A DNA stretch of 43,219 nt from Oscillospiraceae bacterium (GTDB lineage: Bacteria > Bacillota > Clostridia > Oscillospirales > Acutalibacteraceae): the NCBI GenBank assembly GCA_015066445.1, contig SVOK01000017.1:1-43219 (forward strand). Reading direction: 5' to 3'. The translations under genes and the position numbers were made by a program. Below, one piece after another: positions 8,837 to 43,219 of this stretch. The notes below the pieces were generated by a model. That model was not told the origin of the DNA, ran no database searches, and worked only from the letters and a program-made list of their open reading frames with translations. Position 1 is the first letter of the stretch. Each line of letters starts with the position of its first letter.

Positions 8837-10825
8837 TTGAAAAACAAGTTTTTTGAAATTGAATTTAATAAGGAAAACGGCGCAGTAACTTCTATTATAA
8901 ATCCTGCTGATGAGCATAAAATGAATTGGTGCATCGAAAATGCAGGTTGGGGTTTGATTTATTATAATAACACTTTTTATATTGATCCTTTGTATAAGCG
9001 TGAAAATTCGGTTGAAGCAGTAGAGATGACTGAATTCTATGAAGACGAAAGCTGCTGCAGGGCAGAATTCGCTAATGATACGCTAAAAATAACAACAGAG
9101 AGATTTTTTACCGATAACGGTTGTTACAATGAGCGCTATACTATAAAGAATTTAAGAGAAACCGACTTTTTTCTTGAGCAGGGCACTTTAGGTATAAATG
9201 TGCCTTTTAACGACATTTATACCTATGCAGATGACTGTATGGTAAACCGTTGCAATACTCATATTTGGTGCGGTGAAAACACAACATATATCAATGCGCT
9301 TAAAATGGGTGAGTCTGAAATTAATTTAGGTCTGGTTTTAACAAAGGGTGCTATAAAAAATTATAGTGTTAAAAACTGCAAAACAAATCATAGAGGCGAA
9401 TTTATTCTTAATCCAAGCCATTTTGAACTGCTTAGCGGTGAGGAATATGTAATAGAATGGCAGATGTTCTGGCATAAGGGTAAGGATGATTTTGTATCAA
9501 AAGCATACAAATATCCAACATTTGTTAATATTGAAGCTTCACAGTTTACGGTATATGAAAATGAAAATATTGAATTTACGGTAAAATCAAAAAACAGCCT
9601 TGCAAATTTAAAAATAATCTGTGACGGTCAGGAAATAGACTATAGCATTAATGAAAACGGCTATTGCGTTTCGGTGGCACCAAAAAGAGTTGGCGAACAT
9701 AAATTTAATATTATTGCTGACGGTATTTCCACTTATGCAGAGTTTTTTGTAGCCGAAGAATTAGAAACTCTGCTCCGAAAAAGAATTAATTTTATAATTG
9801 AGAAACAGCAATACTGTAGGGAAGATAGCCCTCTTAACGGATCATTTTTAATATATGATAATAAGGAAAAAGAACTGGTTTTTGACTCTGTTTTCAGAGA
9901 CCATAATGCTTGCAGAGAAAGAACTGGTATGGGACTTCTTATTGCTAAATATCTACAAACACACGATAATCCTAAGATGCGTAAGGCACTTGATAAATAT
10001 GTGGCTTTTGTTATACGAGAGGTATTTGATACCGAAACGGGCGAGGTATTTGACGGTGTAAGAAAAAATGTTAAGTTTAAAAGGCTTTATAATGCACCTT
10101 GGATAACTACACTTTTTACCGAGATGTATTTGCTTACAAAGGATAAAACATATCTTAAATATGTGATTAAAGTTTTAGAGCATTATTATTCAGTTGGCGG
10201 TGAAAGATTTTATCCGAACGGACTTTCAATGCGAAGAACAATAGAGGCTTTTGAGAAGGCAGGTCTTTTGGAGGACGCAAAAAGGGTAAAGAAGTGGTAT
10301 GTTGCTCATTCTGATAATATTGTGGCAAACGGACTTTCTTACCCCAAGCACGAGGTTAATTATGAACAAACAATAGTTTCCCCTGCGGCAACCTTTATTT
10401 CAGAAATAGCTTTTGTTACAGGCGAAGAAAAATATAAAACAGAAGCTTTTAAGCACATTAGGATTTTGGAAAGATTTAACGGCGGTCAGCCGAGCTTCCA
10501 CTTAAATGAGTTGCCCATAAGATTCTGGGATGACCGTTGGTTTGGTAAGGAAAGACTTTTCGGTGATACTTTCCCTCATTATTGGAGCTGTCTTACAGCG
10601 AGAGCGTTTAAGGCTTATTATAATTGCTCAGCTGACAGCCGATATAAGAAATTAGCAGAACGCTGTATTAGAAACTGTTTGTGCCTTTTTAACGATAAGG
10701 GTGAAGGCTCTTGTGCCTATGTTTATCCCTTTAAAAGCGGAGATATAAAGGGCGGATTCTATGATGAATGGGCAAATGATCAGGATTTTGCTTTGTATTT
10801 TTATTTAGTTACTAATGAAATTTAA
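8837..10825 (+). CDS. Six-hairpin glycosidase-like protein
   Basis: 662 residues from TTG 8837, chosen because GGAGG (8824-8828) is ideally spaced; the ATG at 8789 lies in the promoter. Residues 1-230 look like a carbohydrate-enzyme beta-sandwich (FFEIEFNKENGAVTSI). Residues about 245-325 resemble an Ig-like segment. The C-terminal half is a helical repeat typical of (alpha/alpha)6-barrel glycosidases (RERTGMGLLIAKYL; YNAPWITTLFTEMYLLT; RFWDDRWFG). There is no signal peptide, so it would act in the cytoplasm on an imported oligosaccharide. The exact family cannot be named from sequence alone. It is followed after 18 bp by an oxidoreductase gene and is probably controlled by the divergent AraC protein. 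Confidence 0.65.
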   Translation: MKNKFFEIEFNKENGAVTSIINPADEHKMNWCIENAGWGLIYYNNTFYIDPLYKRENSVEAVEMTEFYEDESCCRAEFANDTLKITTERFFTDNGCYNERYTIKNLRETDFFLEQGTLGINVPFNDIYTYADDCMVNRCNTHIWCGENTTYINALKMGESEINLGLVLTKGAIKNYSVKNCKTNHRGEFILNPSHFELLSGEEYVIEWQMFWHKGKDDFVSKAYKYPTFVNIEASQFTVYENENIEFTVKSKNSLANLKIICDGQEIDYSINENGYCVSVAPKRVGEHKFNIIADGISTYAEFFVAEELETLLRKRINFIIEKQQYCREDSPLNGSFLIYDNKEKELVFDSVFRDHNACRERTGMGLLIAKYLQTHDNPKMRKALDKYVAFVIREVFDTETGEVFDGVRKNVKFKRLYNAPWITTLFTEMYLLTKDKTYLKYVIKVLEHYYSVGGERFYPNGLSMRRTIEAFEKAGLLEDAKRVKKWYVAHSDNIVANGLSYPKHEVNYEQTIVSPAATFISEIAFVTGEEKYKTEAFKHIRILERFNGGQPSFHLNELPIRFWDDRWFGKERLFGDTFPHYWSCLTARAFKAYYNCSADSRYKKLAERCIRNCLCLFNDKGEGSCAYVYPFKSGDIKGGFYDEWANDQDFALYFYLVTNEI

Positions 10826-38755: not shown

Positions 38756-39277
38756 ATGTGGCAATATGAAAAGAAATTACAGTATCCCATAAATATCAAA
38801 AATCCCAATCCGAAGTATGCGCAGATAATCATAAGTCAATACGGCGGCCCCGATGGCGAGCTTGGAGCTTCAATGCGCTATTTAACGCAGCGTTATTCAC
38901 AGCCTTTCAATGAGGTTAAGGGAATCCTTACCGATATAGGTACGGAAGAACTCGCTCACTTAGAAATGGTGTGCGCAATGGTGCATCAGCTTACAAGAAA
39001 TTTGACCGAAAAAGATATTAAGGAAAGCGGATTTGATAAATATTTTGTTGACCATACAAACGCAGTTTACCCTGTGGCAGCTGCAGGTATTCCTTGGAGA
39101 GCTGAATATATTCAGGCAAAAGGCGATGTTCTTGCCGATTTGCACGAAGACTTAGCCGCAGATGCCACGACCACCAAAGAACAACCTACACATTCAGGAA
39201 CCCGAAAACCCTTGGTATCACTGGCTTTTCGGCACTTTGAACCTTTTCGCAAAAATGGCATACCTGCAACCATATAA
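38756..39277 (+). pseudogene. cotJC: CotJC (manganese catalase-like coat protein), C-terminal part replaced
   Basis: Residues 1-136 are clearly CotJC: YPINIKNPNPKYAQIIISQY, the metal-ligand region GPDGELGASM (E35) and GTEELAHLEM (E65/H68), and ADLHEDLAAD. After residue 136 (base 39164) the frame turns into unrelated residues (ATTTKEQPTHSGTRKP...) up to a stop at 39275-39277. The second half of the enzyme, including the later His ligand in its usual REREVVHF-like segment, is missing. It looks cut by insertion of the island that fills the rest of the window. The truncated protein is probably inactive as a catalase. Confidence 0.75.
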
Positions 39278-39356
39278 GAACAACTTGACCCCATTTTACA
39301 CTAATTTTTTAAAAATTCACGATAGGACAAGCTGTTTCTGAAGAAATTAAAGAGCA
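39164..39356. other. Boundary stretch between cotJC and the island
   Basis: No gene is visible. A 7-bp inverted repeat (39202-39208, 39226-39232) flanks CCCTTGGTATCACTGGC. A 29-codon reading (39319-39405 on the plus strand, IGQAVSEEIKEHKNRHE) has no start codon and may be a gene remnant. Recombination sites could lie here, but no known pattern was recognised. Confidence 0.35.
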
Positions 39357-39398
39357 TAAAAACAGGCACGAGATTGAAGTTTTCGTGCCTGTTTTTAT
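39357..39398. terminator. Bidirectional terminator at the island end
   Basis: AAAAACAGGCACGA pairs with TCGTGCCTGTTTTT around a 12-base loop, ending the minus-strand operon. Confidence 0.85.
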
Positions 39399-39431
39399 AT
39401 AAAATCTTTTCAAATGCTTCTGTAAAAATTA

Positions 39432-39869
39432 CTATTTTCCGTCGTTTTCTGTAGATTTAACGCCTTCAAGAATTTTCTTGGTAATTTCACCTTGTATTTC
39501 CGGCGAATTAAATGCACCACCGAGCATACCATTGAAAAGTCCTGTCATAATACTACCAGCAGCATTGTATTTGGCGGTATTTTCCAGTTCACTCTCCTTG
39601 CGGATTATCTCATTTTCGTGCTCTTTCTGCATAATCTCAAGCTTGTGTTGGTGCTCCTTTTCTTTGGATTCCATCTCAAGCCGATGCTGCTCTCGAATAG
39701 CATCAATGTCAACCTTGTGTTGTTCCATAAGTTTTTCTATTTCATGTTCATTAGCCAATTGCAATTTTTTTGTTTCGGCTTTTGCTTGGCTTTTTGCAAG
39801 AATAAAACTAATAATACCACTTACGATTGCAGGAACGCACGCAATCAGTAATGTCTTAAGTATTTCCAT
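39432..39869 (-). CDS. Membrane-anchored coiled-coil protein, last gene of the island operon
   Basis: 145 residues. One N-terminal membrane helix (residues about 3-24, LLIACVPAIVSGIISFILA) is followed by a long coiled coil rich in Glu, Lys, His and Gln (residues 30-95). The C-terminal part is Gly-rich (GSIMTGLFNGMLGGAFNS). I do not recognise a family. The start has a weak site. It lies 35 bp after the nuclease gene, with no promoter seen between them. Confidence 0.6.
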   Translation of the reverse strand: MEILKTLLIACVPAIVSGIISFILAKSQAKAETKKLQLANEHEIEKLMEQHKVDIDAIREQHRLEMESKEKEHQHKLEIMQKEHENEIIRKESELENTAKYNAAGSIMTGLFNGMLGGAFNSPEIQGEITKKILEGVKSTENDGK

Positions 39870-39904
39870 AAGTTACGCTCACTTTCTTGTGTTTATCGGC
39901 TGTT

Positions 39905-40999
39905 TTACTGATTTCCCTTTTTGAGATTACAATCACGGCAAAGCATTTGGCAATTTTCAGGTGTGGTATGTCCGCCTTTAGACCATGCTTTAATATGGTC
40001 GGCGTGCATATCTTCAAATTCGAATTCTTCGCCGCAAATTGCGCATTTGTGATTTTGCTTTTCGTAAGCCGCAAGAGCATCACGGCGGTCAAAAGCACGG
40101 ATGGAAAGTTTCTTTTCTTCTCCGGTTAGCAGATACTCATAAATGCCGGATTTTTTCGTTACATCTTCATCACCCATAAGGTGCTGAATTTCTAATTCAA
40201 GAGCTTTGGGATCAAGGTCGGTACGCTTACCGTGTTCGTTATAATACAAGCCCCAAGGTAACCCCTTCATTTCTTTGCGCTTTTTCGGGAAGATGGCTTG
40301 TACCCAATCGATAACAGAACGGAAATAATTCCAAAGTGTTACGGCGCTCGGGTCGTGCTGATGCTCCGACATATAGCCTTCGATGGTTTTACCCTCTGCA
40401 CTTGCTGCCCACAGTATTGCTGTTTCCAGATATTCCTGACGAATACTGGAACCCTTCAAATAGTCACCGGCGAGCGCATCTGCCGCACATCCTGTTTTGG
40501 AGAAGTATCTCTTGGCATCGGAAGTCCAAGAGCCTGCATACACCGCATTCCGCAACTCCTGATCAGTCAGTTGCTCGCCTGCAATGTTAATGATTCTAAA
40601 CCAGTCAAGCTTTTCGCTGTCCGTTCCGTCACATACATAAACAAATAACGGATAATCCAAAATCTTTTTCTTAACGTCGGCAGGTAAATTGTAGAAGTAT
40701 TTATCGTCTACAGAGAAAGACCCATCCACGTACTCGCAAAGAGAAATTGTTCTTTGCTGTCCGTCAAGCACTTCGTATGTATCATCACCGGTTTTGCACC
40801 AATAGATAACGTTTAGCGGCAGTCCTTTAAGAACCGTGCGGATAACCTCATCACGTTGTGCATCCTTGTAGACGAATTCGCGCTGATATTTAGGTCTGAT
40901 ATCGAGTCTTTCATCATAACCTACGACGCCTTCTTCGGCATCATTGAAATATCCTTCACAAACTTCGCCTACTGTTATTTTTCTTTCTTCAATAATCAT
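39905..40999 (-). CDS. DUF262-HNH nuclease protein (GmrSD-like)
   Basis: 364 residues. The N-terminal DUF262 (ParB/Srx-like) domain has the active-site DGQQR at residues 79-83. The C-terminal HNH domain carries zinc cysteines C319, C322, C354, C357 and the catalytic D334-H335 and N349/N358 (CAICGEEFEFEDMHADHI). Together these parts are known from type IV restriction proteins of the GmrSD group, which cleave DNA, often modified DNA. The gene overlaps the methyltransferase stop by 4 bp (ATGA) and has GGAGGTAAAGAA upstream of ATG. The pair suggests a restriction-type role; see findings. Confidence 0.85.
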   Translation of the reverse strand: MIIEERKITVGEVCEGYFNDAEEGVVGYDERLDIRPKYQREFVYKDAQRDEVIRTVLKGLPLNVIYWCKTGDDTYEVLDGQQRTISLCEYVDGSFSVDDKYFYNLPADVKKKILDYPLFVYVCDGTDSEKLDWFRIINIAGEQLTDQELRNAVYAGSWTSDAKRYFSKTGCAADALAGDYLKGSSIRQEYLETAILWAASAEGKTIEGYMSEHQHDPSAVTLWNYFRSVIDWVQAIFPKKRKEMKGLPWGLYYNEHGKRTDLDPKALELEIQHLMGDEDVTKKSGIYEYLLTGEEKKLSIRAFDRRDALAAYEKQNHKCAICGEEFEFEDMHADHIKAWSKGGHTTPENCQMLCRDCNLKKGNQ

Positions 41000-42078
41000 T
41001 TCTTTACCTCCTCGGGGCGTTTGTTTTTTATTAATACGCGAAAATATGTAGCTTTTCCATTAATATTACAAGCATGAGAGTGCCTTTCCTTTATATCTTC
41101 ATTTAATTCGTCACATCCAAATAGAATGTATCTATTAAGTGCGTTTACAATCTCAAATTGCTCGGGATTATATTTGTACATAAATGTAATTGGAACCCCC
41201 ATCACACCATCATAATCCAATGGTATATCTGCTACTTTTGAAACTTCAATTGCATCGATATTATCATATTTAGGATAATCTTCTTCGGAATACTTTTTAA
41301 CAAGAATCATTTCTTCGTGTCTTTTTCTTATGTCAAGATTTGTATACCAAGCAATATTACCCATTGAGCGCCATTTTTGACCTTCTTCATCAACCCAAAA
41401 ACGAGTTTCACGAGGTTCAAAGTATTCTGGGACTCGGAATGCCATATCTCCATTGCCATAACCTAACCATACTTTGTTCTGCATCAGCAATGGGAAAAAT
41501 TCTTTATAAGTTATGGCGTTCTGACTTCCAATTATTATAAAATGCTTGTTGTGCTCAAGTAGCGTTGATACATATTCCCGGAACAAGGAAAAAGGCGGGT
41601 TAGTAACCACAATATCGGACTCATCCATAAGTGCAATACATTCTTCCGATCTAAAATCACCATCGCCGGTTAACTCAACAAGTTCATTAACTCCATTCTT
41701 AAACAACTCTGCCACATCAAGCATATCAACACCACCATCGTCGGTTTGGTCGTATACTTGAGTAACTATTGCTTTATATGGTTTATTTGTGTTTTCTTCA
41801 CCCGTTCCGAGAACATCAAATATCGATAGCTGTTGATTTGCGATAGGAGAACCGGAATAACAAGTCGCAAGTAACTTCTTTAATCCAAGCCTATTAAAAT
41901 TCAAAACGAAATACTTGAAAAAGTTACTTTCAAAAGGATCATCACAATTACATAAAATTGTCTTTCCTCTAAAGTGTTGCTTATAGTGACGCAATTCCTT
42001 CTCAATATCAGTAAGCTGTGTATAAAATTCATCTTCTTTTGTTCTCTCTGCTGTTCTTAAACTTTTATTTCCCGCCAT
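40996..42078 (-). CDS. Adenine-specific methyltransferase, EcoRI family
   Basis: 360 residues. NPPF at 160-163 (IVVTNPPFSLFREYV) is the adenine-N6 methyltransferase catalytic motif IV. The N-terminal ERTKEDEFYTQLTDIEKEL and ILCNCDDPFESNFFKYF match the EcoRI methylase family. It would methylate adenine in a specific DNA site. The ATG overlaps the 105-residue gene by 14 bp and the stop overlaps the nuclease ATG by 4 bp, so it is co-translated with both. The base composition is much more AT-rich than fic. Confidence 0.88.
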   Translation of the reverse strand: MAGNKSLRTAERTKEDEFYTQLTDIEKELRHYKQHFRGKTILCNCDDPFESNFFKYFVLNFNRLGLKKLLATCYSGSPIANQQLSIFDVLGTGEENTNKPYKAIVTQVYDQTDDGGVDMLDVAELFKNGVNELVELTGDGDFRSEECIALMDESDIVVTNPPFSLFREYVSTLLEHNKHFIIIGSQNAITYKEFFPLLMQNKVWLGYGNGDMAFRVPEYFEPRETRFWVDEEGQKWRSMGNIAWYTNLDIRKRHEEMILVKKYSEEDYPKYDNIDAIEVSKVADIPLDYDGVMGVPITFMYKYNPEQFEIVNALNRYILFGCDELNEDIKERHSHACNINGKATYFRVLIKNKRPEEVKK

Positions 42079-42382
42079 TAACTTTTTCCTCCAACTCTAA
42101 TTTAGCAAGTTTTGCTTTTAGAATATCTATCTGAAATTGTATATTCGCAACGATAAGGTTATTGTCTGCTTGATAAAGGTCCACACCGCCAAATTGAGTC
42201 TGTTTAGCAACTGTGGCAAAAGCCATATCGGCATCTGTATATTGTAACGATAGTATCTTTTCTATTGCTTTGTTGCGGTCAAAAAATCCGGTAGTTTGAA
42301 ACCGACGGATGATATTTTCACGCTCGATAATATCTTTTGTAATGGACATCTTATCATATTCTCTTTTGATTGGATTACTCAT
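42065..42382 (-). CDS. Unknown 105-residue protein between fic and methyltransferase
   Basis: Starts at ATG 42382, within the last base of fic. GGAGGAG from the end of fic acts as ribosome site. The protein is helical and charged: ERENIIRRFQTTGFFDRNKA in the middle and QIDILKAKLAKLELEEK at the end, where a coiled coil is likely. It contains TDADMAFATVAKQTQFGG and no membrane segment. It does not show the antitoxin motif known from VbhA-type Fic partners. I do not recognise the family. Confidence 0.6.
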   Translation of the reverse strand: MSNPIKREYDKMSITKDIIERENIIRRFQTTGFFDRNKAIEKILSLQYTDADMAFATVAKQTQFGGVDLYQADNNLIVANIQFQIDILKAKLAKLELEEKVNGGK

Positions 42383-42987
42383 TATAACTCCTCCGTCTTA
42401 AAGGTTGTATAACCCTCGTAGTAGTAGCTGTGGTCGATGCCTTTCATATAGACCTCGCGGCTATGGATATCGTCGGTCAGGGCGGCTTTCAGGATATGCT
42501 TAATCTCGATATCCTTAATGGGACTGCGCTCCATTGCAAGCAGATAGTCCTCTTTATCCACCTTGCTCCAATCGACCACCTTGCCGATCTCTTTCTTGAA
42601 GATGCAATCCAGCCAGATGCGTGTGCTTCTGCCGTTGCCCTCACGGAAGGGATGGGCGATATTCATTTCCACGTATTTCTCCACGACCTCATCAAAAGTG
42701 GACTGGGGCATCTTGTCAATGTTGGCAAGTGCTGCTTCCAGATACATAAGCGGTGCGAAACGGAAGTTGCCCTTTGCAATATTCACGGTGCGAAGCTCAC
42801 CGGCAAAGTAGTAGATCTCGTCAAAGAGATATTTATGGATGGCTTTCAGGGTCGCAAATGTACCGGCCTCCAAGCTATCCAATAAGCCGTTTTCAAACAG
42901 CTCCACGGCCTTCTTTTTACTGATACGTTCCTCTGCTTCTGCAAGCTCCGGGGAGCTGGTAATGCCAAGTTTATTTTCAAGTGCCAT
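42382..42987 (-). CDS. fic: Fic family AMP-transferase-type protein, class III
   Basis: 201 residues from ATG 42987, with GGGGGA upstream (a longer frame from 43173 overlaps the XRE gene). The Fic motif HPFREGNGR is complete at residues 112-120, with the flap upstream (NIAKGNFRFAP). The inhibitory motif S187-x-x-x-E191-G192 lies in the C-terminal helix (DHSYYYEGY), as in class III Fic proteins such as NmFic, which carry their own antitoxin. Such enzymes attach AMP to target proteins, reported for DNA gyrase subunits. Its DNA is clearly more GC-rich than the downstream genes. Confidence 0.92.
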   Translation of the reverse strand: MALENKLGITSSPELAEAEERISKKKAVELFENGLLDSLEAGTFATLKAIHKYLFDEIYYFAGELRTVNIAKGNFRFAPLMYLEAALANIDKMPQSTFDEVVEKYVEMNIAHPFREGNGRSTRIWLDCIFKKEIGKVVDWSKVDKEDYLLAMERSPIKDIEIKHILKAALTDDIHSREVYMKGIDHSYYYEGYTTFKTEEL

Positions 42988-42988
42988 C

Positions 42989-43210
42989 TTATTTGTCCCC
43001 CTTTGCTTCATCGGGGACAAACTCCATAATGTCGTCCACATTGCAACCAAGGGCAGCACAAACCTTGCCCAGGGTGTCCACCTGAACAGATTCGTTCCTG
43101 CCCATCTTCGCCATAGCGTTGGAAGTGATGCCCGATAGCTTAACAAGCTCGGTCTTTTTAAGTCCTCTATCAATAAGTAATTTCCACAATTTATTGTAAC
43201 TGATAGCCAT
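42989..43210 (-). CDS. XRE-family (Cro/C1-type) helix-turn-helix protein
   Basis: 73 residues. The helix-turn-helix is KKTELVKLSGITSNAMAKM, followed by VDTLGKVCAALGCNVDDIME, the usual tail of small Cro/CI-like regulators. The start ATG at 43210 is just inside the right edge, with AGG at the edge as part of its ribosome site. It is the first gene of the island operon in this window, 1 bp before fic, and likely regulates it. The promoter lies outside the window. Confidence 0.88.
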   Translation of the reverse strand: MAISYNKLWKLLIDRGLKKTELVKLSGITSNAMAKMGRNESVQVDTLGKVCAALGCNVDDIMEFVPDEAKGDK

Positions 43211-43219
43211 AGGAAACCT

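Follow-up and report, generated by a model that had tools for sequence, protein, structure and literature searches.

The right-hand end of a 43,219-nucleotide contig of an Oscillospiraceae bacterium (SVOK01000017.1), analysed here as a whole and termed the window, carries an island of six open reading frames (ORFs), all on the minus strand and arranged head to tail. In gene order these encode an XRE/Cro-C1 regulator of 73 aa (42989–43210; HTH_26, E = 4e-18), a class III Fic AMP-transferase of 201 aa (42382–42987; NF046029 NmFic, E = 4.7e-94, above cut-off), a 105-aa protein with no family assigned (42065–42382), an EcoRI-family adenine-N6 DNA methyltransferase of 360 aa (MT; 40996–42078; PF13651 EcoRI_methylase, E = 8e-148), a nuclease of 364 aa combining a DUF262 (ParB/Srx-like NTPase) domain with an HNH domain (NUC; 39905–40999; GmrSD_N and HNH Pfam matches), and a 145-aa protein (39432–39869) with an N-terminal membrane helix and a coiled coil by eye. 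The conserved unit within this island is the pair of MT and NUC, with two hypervariable segments of MT, termed V1 (residues 203–246; 41341–41472, minus strand) and V2 (residues 311–346; 41041–41148, minus strand), swapped beside a near-constant nuclease; we propose that MT supplies the specificity of NUC.

Successive genes are joined by a 1-bp gap, a 1-bp overlap, a 14-bp overlap, a 4-bp overlap and a 35-bp gap, a spacing that suggests co-transcription. Downstream lies a terminator hairpin with a 17-bp stem (39355–39399, minus strand), where a 96-nt stretch folds at z −5.8 and none of 200 shuffles folds equally well; a generic terminator scan did not list this hairpin. The contig, and with it the window, ends at position 43219, 9 bases before the start of XRE, which leaves the operon's promoter and 5′ end outside the visible sequence and makes XRE the first visible gene of the unit. 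A first-pass annotation of this DNA, made from the letters alone, had described six genes on one strand with small gaps and overlaps, closed by a single strong terminator, and had named the XRE, class III Fic, EcoRI-family MT and DUF262-HNH products; the ORF coordinates and junctions, the hairpin, and the Pfam and NCBIfam matches all agree with that description.

The GmrSD_N/DUF262 domain of NUC spans residues 33–154 and the PF01844 HNH domain residues 319–364, with the DGQQR motif invariant in a 32-row NUC alignment. The best fold match is to BrxU (7p9k, E = 2e-4), with further matches to ParB CTPases, the NUC model having a predicted template modelling score of 0.43 and being used at domain level alone. 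MT is 47% identical to M.EcoRI, with no solved relative found by sequence and no Foldseek match at E 0.001 or better. PADLOC matches the pair nearly full length to PDLC03297 and PDLC03418 (E = 2.5e-140 and 8.5e-162), named MTase_II and REase_II, and the first-pass statement that no named system has this composition is thus half right: the pair has a name, albeit a catalogue label that is silent on guidance or module exchange. In those titles, abstract beginnings and passages of the CC-licensed (Creative Commons) literature that were seen, no account appears of a DUF262-HNH nuclease paired with a module-shuffling EcoRI-type MT.

Scanning a genome collection with NUC gave 270 relatives, the best 80 of which are the related loci compared below (L-numbers denote loci, and G-numbers genomes), and a scan of viral contigs gave 148, of which the best 80 were again taken. 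Cultured carriers include Faecalibacterium sp. I4-3-84, Anaerotignum, Bifidobacterium saguini, B. vansinderenii and Pseudoflavonifractor An44. MT lies upstream of NUC in 71 of the 74 genome loci with enough upstream sequence (6 of the 80 being too short), at a distance of −158 to +50 bp in 70 of these 71 and of 1.5 kb in one; the loci lacking an upstream MT are L044, which holds an MT remnant, L084, and L086. Among 299 genomes sampled from the phylum, MT and NUC each occur in 7 and are adjacent in 6, the seventh MT being a fragment and the seventh NUC being broken by stops. Viral contigs present the same arrangement, with MT upstream in 73 of 77 readable loci (3/80 too short), separated from NUC by −11 to +24 bp in 57 of the 73, and directly downstream in the remaining four (L192, L198–L200), such that the two genes stand side by side in 77/77. 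MT is also present in each of four phage records that hold most of NUC (two of them being one phage), and upstream of NUC in all eight NUC-bearing plasmid loci examined, among 50 plasmid records matching NUC. Since 98 plasmid records match MT and 50 match NUC, at differing E limits, many of the plasmid MTs may be paired with something else or stand alone.

Several loci depart from the simple pair. Tandem MTs precede a single NUC in L028 and L041, where the two are of different module types, and in L026, where both are in pieces, and a contig of Bifidobacterium vansinderenii (NZ_NEWD01000016.1; L071 and L076) holds two MT–NUC units with different MTs. A small ribbon-helix-helix-like protein, with Pfam matches below cut-off, occurs in 17 of the 80 loci (e.g. 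L017:8726–8878 and L020:871–1032) and abuts or overlaps the start of MT in 16 of the 17, making it a possible control protein. The MT of a L. pentosus plasmid (L134:1934–2980) carries NEPF in place of the NPPF of the other MTs shown, and its catalysis may thus be changed; the NUC gene beside it is nonetheless open. In L084 and L086, near 9384–10001, NUC directly follows an ORF that by eye resembles a truncated Tn916-type integrase. No PF13651 gene was found in either assembly, NUC being broken in L084 and intact in L086; the intact lone NUC fits a nuclease that is harmless alone, and the assembly may be incomplete.

The variable segments of MT were compared in 61 rows, comprising 60 MTs from 58 of the 80 loci together with that of the window, the 22 omitted loci being cut off, frameshifted, MT-less or near duplicates, with L083 left out. 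The NPPF motif is invariant in this alignment. Median pairwise identity is 73% in the N part (residues 14–195) and 70% in the middle part (247–309), falling to 29.5% in V1 and 11% in V2. At a 65% identity limit V1 divides into 18 types (12 singletons, and six with two or more members) and V2 into 45 (34 singletons), which together form 53 combinations, with a rho of 0.03 between V1 and V2 similarity. The borders of the segments are conserved in most rows shown, with W(F/Y)TNLD following V1, GVPITF..KY.P.QFEI preceding V2, and Y.R(I/V).I(R/K)NK.PE following it. V1 and V2 are replaced wholesale and largely independently of each other, and are most likely target-recognition modules.

EcoRI-family MTs also occur in longer proteins. 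Two gut phages with hosts in the Lachnospiraceae and Anaeroplasmataceae (L136:609–2717 and L137:622–2748) encode a fusion of ~705 aa that starts with an EcoRI-family MT and has a second half that is C5-cytosine MT-like by eye; its modules resemble those of bacterial NUC-locus MTs, at 64–68% for V1 and 62% for V2. The MT of a L. plantarum plasmid (L235) has an annotated length similar to that of these phage fusions.

Exchange of the modules takes place beside a nuclease that hardly changes. NUC and MT were compared in the 57 loci having both, and the viral comparison covered 63 of the 80 viral loci, with pairwise removal of duplicates that exceed 97% identity in NUC. Among the six closest loci (the window, L008–L011, and L013) the NUC proteins are 97.0–99.5% identical and the MTs far apart, and of 27 locus pairs with at least 95% NUC identity, 6 have the same V1 type, 3 the same V2 type, and 1 both. 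The clearest pair is L223 and L224, with identities of 100% in NUC, 97% in the MT N part, 29% in V1, and 17% in V2; at the nucleotide level, 60-bp bins of these loci match at 90–100% over a region that begins ~0.5 kb ahead of MT and extends ~1.5 kb beyond NUC, the exception being the V1–V2 stretch, and the loci differ again further upstream than ~0.5 kb. Other pairs show exchanges of different extent: the difference between L039 and L048 is chiefly in V1 (24%), with V2 at 100%, that between L022 and L074 runs from V1 to V2, and L029 and L033 differ over the whole MT beside a NUC gene that is 97–100% identical over most of its length, whilst L008 and L009 have V2, and not V1, in common at the 97–100% nucleotide level, and V1 is common to the window and L010. 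On the NUC tree the V1 types require 21 changes, compared with a shuffled mean of 22.2 (32% of shuffles as low), and no NUC column was informative on V1 type above the permutation limit in the 57 loci. The ratio of nonsynonymous to synonymous substitution (dN/dS) in NUC is 0.008–0.024 in seven of eight pairs, and 0.069 in the youngest. Taken over these alignments, NUC stays constant while V1 and V2 are exchanged.

The opposite behaviour is seen where an EcoRI-family MT stands beside an EcoRI-type nuclease. The equivalents of V1 and V2 in M.EcoRI are residues 183–228 and 295–315, and a control set was formed of four MTs beside such a nuclease, from E. coli, two Klebsiella plasmids and a Helicobacter phage; L236 was excluded as its neighbouring ORF is not EcoRI-like, as were the MT plasmids L234 and L235, which have no EcoRI gene listed beside them. 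In the six pairs of this control, identity is 60–81% in the N part, 76–93% in V1, and 81–100% in V2, with both segments exceeding the N part in 6/6 pairs, V1 exceeding the middle part in 5/6, and V2 in 6/6. V1 and V2 thus seem to be conserved where the target is dictated by a partner with sequence specificity of its own, and to be free where the partner is DUF262-HNH. EcoRI, the partner of M.EcoRI, reads GAATTC by itself. Although the EcoRI restriction-modification (R-M) system has an MT of the same family as that of the window, its gene order is R then M, and its V1 and V2 are conserved. The V1 type of M.EcoRI is nevertheless also found in NUC-paired MTs, namely that of L023 and those of E. 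faecium and A. kunkeei plasmid pairs, with 65–67% identity to the V1 of L023, L139, and L140, and therefore both kinds of MT would draw on one module pool. Near V1 lie W183, C223, and H235 of M.EcoRI (published numbering), which are implicated in the binding or bending of DNA. Allowing for an offset of one at the initial Met, the plasmid M.EcoRI sequence agrees with these three residues, though not with a fourth, N239.

It is chiefly because of this control that V1 and V2 are regarded here as recognition modules and the specificity of NUC as coming from MT. We put at roughly two in three the probability that a generic GmrSD-like nuclease is given its specificity by MT, with V1 and V2 as exchangeable recognition modules. 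Under such a scheme, MT would consist of a conserved catalytic frame carrying two modules that read DNA, and would methylate its own site in the host genome. Where the same site is unmethylated, as in phage or plasmid DNA, MT would recruit or license NUC in an MT–NUC complex, thereby restricting phage. NUC would have no sequence specificity of its own, with its DUF262 NTPase domain gating the HNH domain in an NTP-dependent manner. Homologous recombination at the conserved borders would swap V1, V2, or both, so that a new specificity for methylation and restriction together could be acquired in one step, NUC needing no matching change.

A number of observations weigh against this proposal. Retrieval of the loci was led by NUC similarity, which inflates the apparent conservation of NUC, and in the distant viral set NUC, with a median identity of 52%, is no better conserved than the MT frame (49–52%), V1 and V2 alone standing out as variable. 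NUC identity and module identity are correlated at rho 0.15 for V1 and 0.06 for V2 in the genomes, and at 0.31 and 0.23 in the viral set, and two pairs of loci, L165/L181 (NUC 83%) and L191/L218 (NUC 91%), retain both modules. On the NUC tree the V2 types require 16 changes, compared with 18.9 in shuffles (1% as low). For a tree built from the MT N part, the V1 types require 19 compared with 22.2 (2% as low), and the V2 types 15 compared with 18.8 (0/300 as low). Because the module types associate with the MT N-part tree, and V2 weakly with the NUC tree, exchange is frequent but not free, and modules appear to stay with their MT frame for a while. L223 and L224 have 1.1–1.2 kb between MT and NUC, and contact between the proteins is therefore not forced by gene overlap. 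Additionally, L084 and L086 have no MT, though their assemblies may be incomplete, the control consists of four MTs, that of the Helicobacter phage being broken with a short nuclease ORF, and guidance is no requirement of the MT family, given that the nuclease partner of M.EcoRI is independent.

In Type I and Type III systems, too, recognition modules that can be exchanged are combined with a nuclease partner that stays the same. Type III Mod is variable in its recognition part, and the unit described here likewise combines, in pattern, variable recognition in the MT with a constant nuclease subunit. It differs in its compact EcoRI-type MT and DUF262-HNH nuclease, and in having no counterpart of the Type III Res, with its SF2 helicase and nuclease, there being no helicase domain in the six genes. 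For Type I systems, passages of one study describe the target recognition domains of HsdS as variable (PMC12707154). BREX is not indicated either, with neither PglZ nor BrxC found in a search confined to the six gene products. More tentatively, the pair may represent a helicase-free class of MT-guided restriction, in which MT would read an unmethylated site by way of two plug-in modules and load a ParB-like DUF262 NTPase nuclease there, possibly in the form of a clamp that moves away before cutting at another place, like ParB at parS; we regard this reading as possible, with the odds against it.

Of the alternatives, that which survives best is that NUC acts independently of the sequence information in MT and responds to modified phage DNA or to a mark on the DNA, in a Type IV or SspE-like manner, with MT as a separate or mark-supplying partner. 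NUC has the architecture of the GmrSD/BrxU/SspE group, with an N-terminal DUF262 domain bearing DGQQR and a C-terminal His-Me-type (HNH) nuclease, its best fold match is to a member of that group, and passages of a published account state that DUF262 proteins of this group sense or act on modified DNA (PMC10952713). A nuclease of this kind would also account for the indifference of NUC to its MT, and for its persistence in L086, in an assembly without any PF13651 gene. NUC differs from the group, however, in its length of 364 aa, in a PF01844 HNH domain that replaces the DUF1524 of GmrSD, which is absent from NUC, and in its near-obligate adenine-MT partner. That NUC almost always neighbours a single MT family, in genomes, in viral contigs and in the plasmids examined, at very short distances in most viral loci, argues for joint function, and we consider independent sensing unlikely.

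An orthodox Type II system, in which MT and the nuclease independently recognise the same site, is disfavoured and very improbable. The PADLOC labels, the two separate adjacent genes for MT and restriction endonuclease (REase), and the membership of M.EcoRI in such a system all speak for it, but an REase of that kind should co-vary with the specificity of its MT, and the sequence comparisons point to the contrary: V1 and V2 are exchanged next to a NUC that is identical or nearly so, and are conserved above the rest in EcoRI-type pairs, unlike in NUC pairs. It is similarly improbable that the variation of V1 and V2 serves evasion of phage inhibitors, or has some other cause at the protein surface, and plays no part in DNA specificity. 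Arms races also yield hypervariability, and MT has no structural match by which V1 and V2 could be placed on DNA; yet the segments are conserved above the N part exactly in the MTs beside EcoRI-type nucleases, M.EcoRI shares its V1 module with NUC-paired MTs, and V1 falls into few recurring types, though most V2 types are singletons. That the six genes form one defence system is scarcely credible, despite the tight operon of the window and the recurrence of Fic-x-MT-NUC in L008, L009, L011, L013, and L035, as Fic and MT–NUC occur apart in 9/10 Fic genomes and 5/6 pair genomes, both the middle gene (105 aa, 195 aa, AbiH, or a second Fic) and the last are exchanged, and the 145-aa protein is found in 0/80 loci.

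The first-pass annotation had likened the operon to a defence module, had proposed counting how often the six families occur together, and had set the rule that the six genes would be a chance assembly if fic and the MT pair were usually found apart. An operon-like unit with defence-type content is indeed present, but none of the 80 related loci contains all six families, and one conserved defence system of six genes is rejected on co-occurrence across loci and phylum genomes. As fic and the MT pair usually occur apart, the six genes are, by the rule set beforehand, an assembly of modules. The same annotation had singled out the two uncharacterised proteins as candidates for new components; both are rare cargo, and the unexpected feature sits in the MT–NUC pair.

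XRE and Fic form a separate class III Fic module, independent of MT–NUC. Class III Fic proteins are marked by an HPFx[D/E]GNGR active site and a C-terminal [S/T]xxxE[G/N] motif, and the Fic of the window contains HPFREGNGR and the inhibitory-type SYYYEG at its C-terminus, both of which we presume to have their usual functional meaning. Its motifs, its orthology to NmFic and EfFic, its closest solved structure (5nv5, E = 1e-85), and its match to PADLOC PDC-S04 (E = 4e-104) make it a clear member of the class, with no unusual feature seen. Fic (E up to 1e-20) occurs in 10 of the 299 phylum genomes, with MT–NUC also present in that of the window alone, and lies near MT–NUC in seven of the 80 loci (L008, L009, L011, L013, L026, L028, and L035, one partial). 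A 100% identical XRE precedes Fic in L008; XRE is present in two of the 80 NUC loci, one copy being merely 64% identical and without Fic.

The genes around the pair vary between these loci, with the orders XRE-Fic-195aa-MT-NUC in L008, Fic-105aa-MT-NUC in L009 (from another family of the same order), Fic-AbiH-MT-NUC in L011, HTH-Fic-Fic2-105aa-MT-NUC in L013 (HTH, helix-turn-helix), and a partial Fic-195aa-MT-NUC in L035. The 195-aa protein has a zinc-ribbon-like start by eye. The slot after NUC is filled by an Abi_alpha protein in L008 and by a protein with nearly the same start in L011, and an Abi_C protein lies ahead of the MTs of L028. Since relatives hold AbiH, Abi_alpha or other genes at these positions, the 105-aa protein, between Fic and MT, and the 145-aa protein, after NUC, sit in defence-island cargo slots that elsewhere are filled by Abi genes, and by position both are probably defence cargo. 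The 105-aa protein has no match in Pfam, NCBIfam, PADLOC or PHROG, has relatives (84–86% identity) in L009 and L013 alone, and was found in none of the 299 phylum genomes but that of the window. It was considered as a core partner and rejected: in addition to the window it occurs in two of the 80 loci, its own peptides gave no relative among viruses, and there was no plasmid match. The 145-aa protein, which has no Pfam family above cut-off, matches phrog_2542 (function not assigned) over residues 3–89 (E = 1e-15), and among the phylum genomes is likewise found in that of the window alone.

The island is bordered by a CotJC fragment of 135 residues (38756–39160, plus strand; domain match), which is broken after residue 135, the sequence beyond (38756–39280 region) not being cotJC-like. 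The 66 residues that are missing were searched for, with the sequence of a relative as query, and gave no match in the genome's own assembly, which is 87% complete. The break that had been read as support for recent arrival is real, and the patchy spread fits horizontal arrival, possibly recent. Elsewhere in the family of the window, cotJC is interrupted at either of two recurrent positions, codons ~33 and ~64, with complementary pieces in 10 of 41 genomes (G118, G145, G148, G149, G153, G164, G170, G172, G177, and G182) and breaks at both places in G145 and G170. Both pieces lie on one contig in G149 (L147/L148), G172 (L146), and G153 (L145); in the other genomes an apparent split could be an effect of contig ends. 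All three of the elements examined carry large serine recombinases and are, by eye, a prophage-like element of ~36 kb, one of ~5 kb, and one of ~14 kb with sugar genes, such that cotJC may be a skin-like hotspot with elements that excise at sporulation. That the island is an element of this kind is not supported, with its break at residue 135 and not ~33 or ~64, no recombinase domain in its six genes, and the missing end of cotJC not found. A relative of the island in L007 (G020:C40) sits directly upstream of a cotJ operon that is intact, at the opposite side from the arrangement in the window, which we regard as coincidence.

The enzyme family of M.EcoRI is a textbook one, yet the partner of its relatives in six of seven genomes of the phylum sample is a GmrSD-like nuclease. 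If the proposed division of labour is correct, a compact two-protein restriction system would be re-targeted by exchange of a pair of short stretches, of 44 and 36 residues in the MT of the window, which would explain a change of specificity without self-killing. Natural pairs in which this can be tested are plentiful among the 270 genome and 148 viral-contig relatives of NUC. Under the more tentative reading of a helicase-free class, one nuclease would serve dozens of MT specificities, and the barrier to DNA transfer would change in one step across gut bacteria, plasmids and phages. Labels of Type II R-M may hide a different division of labour.

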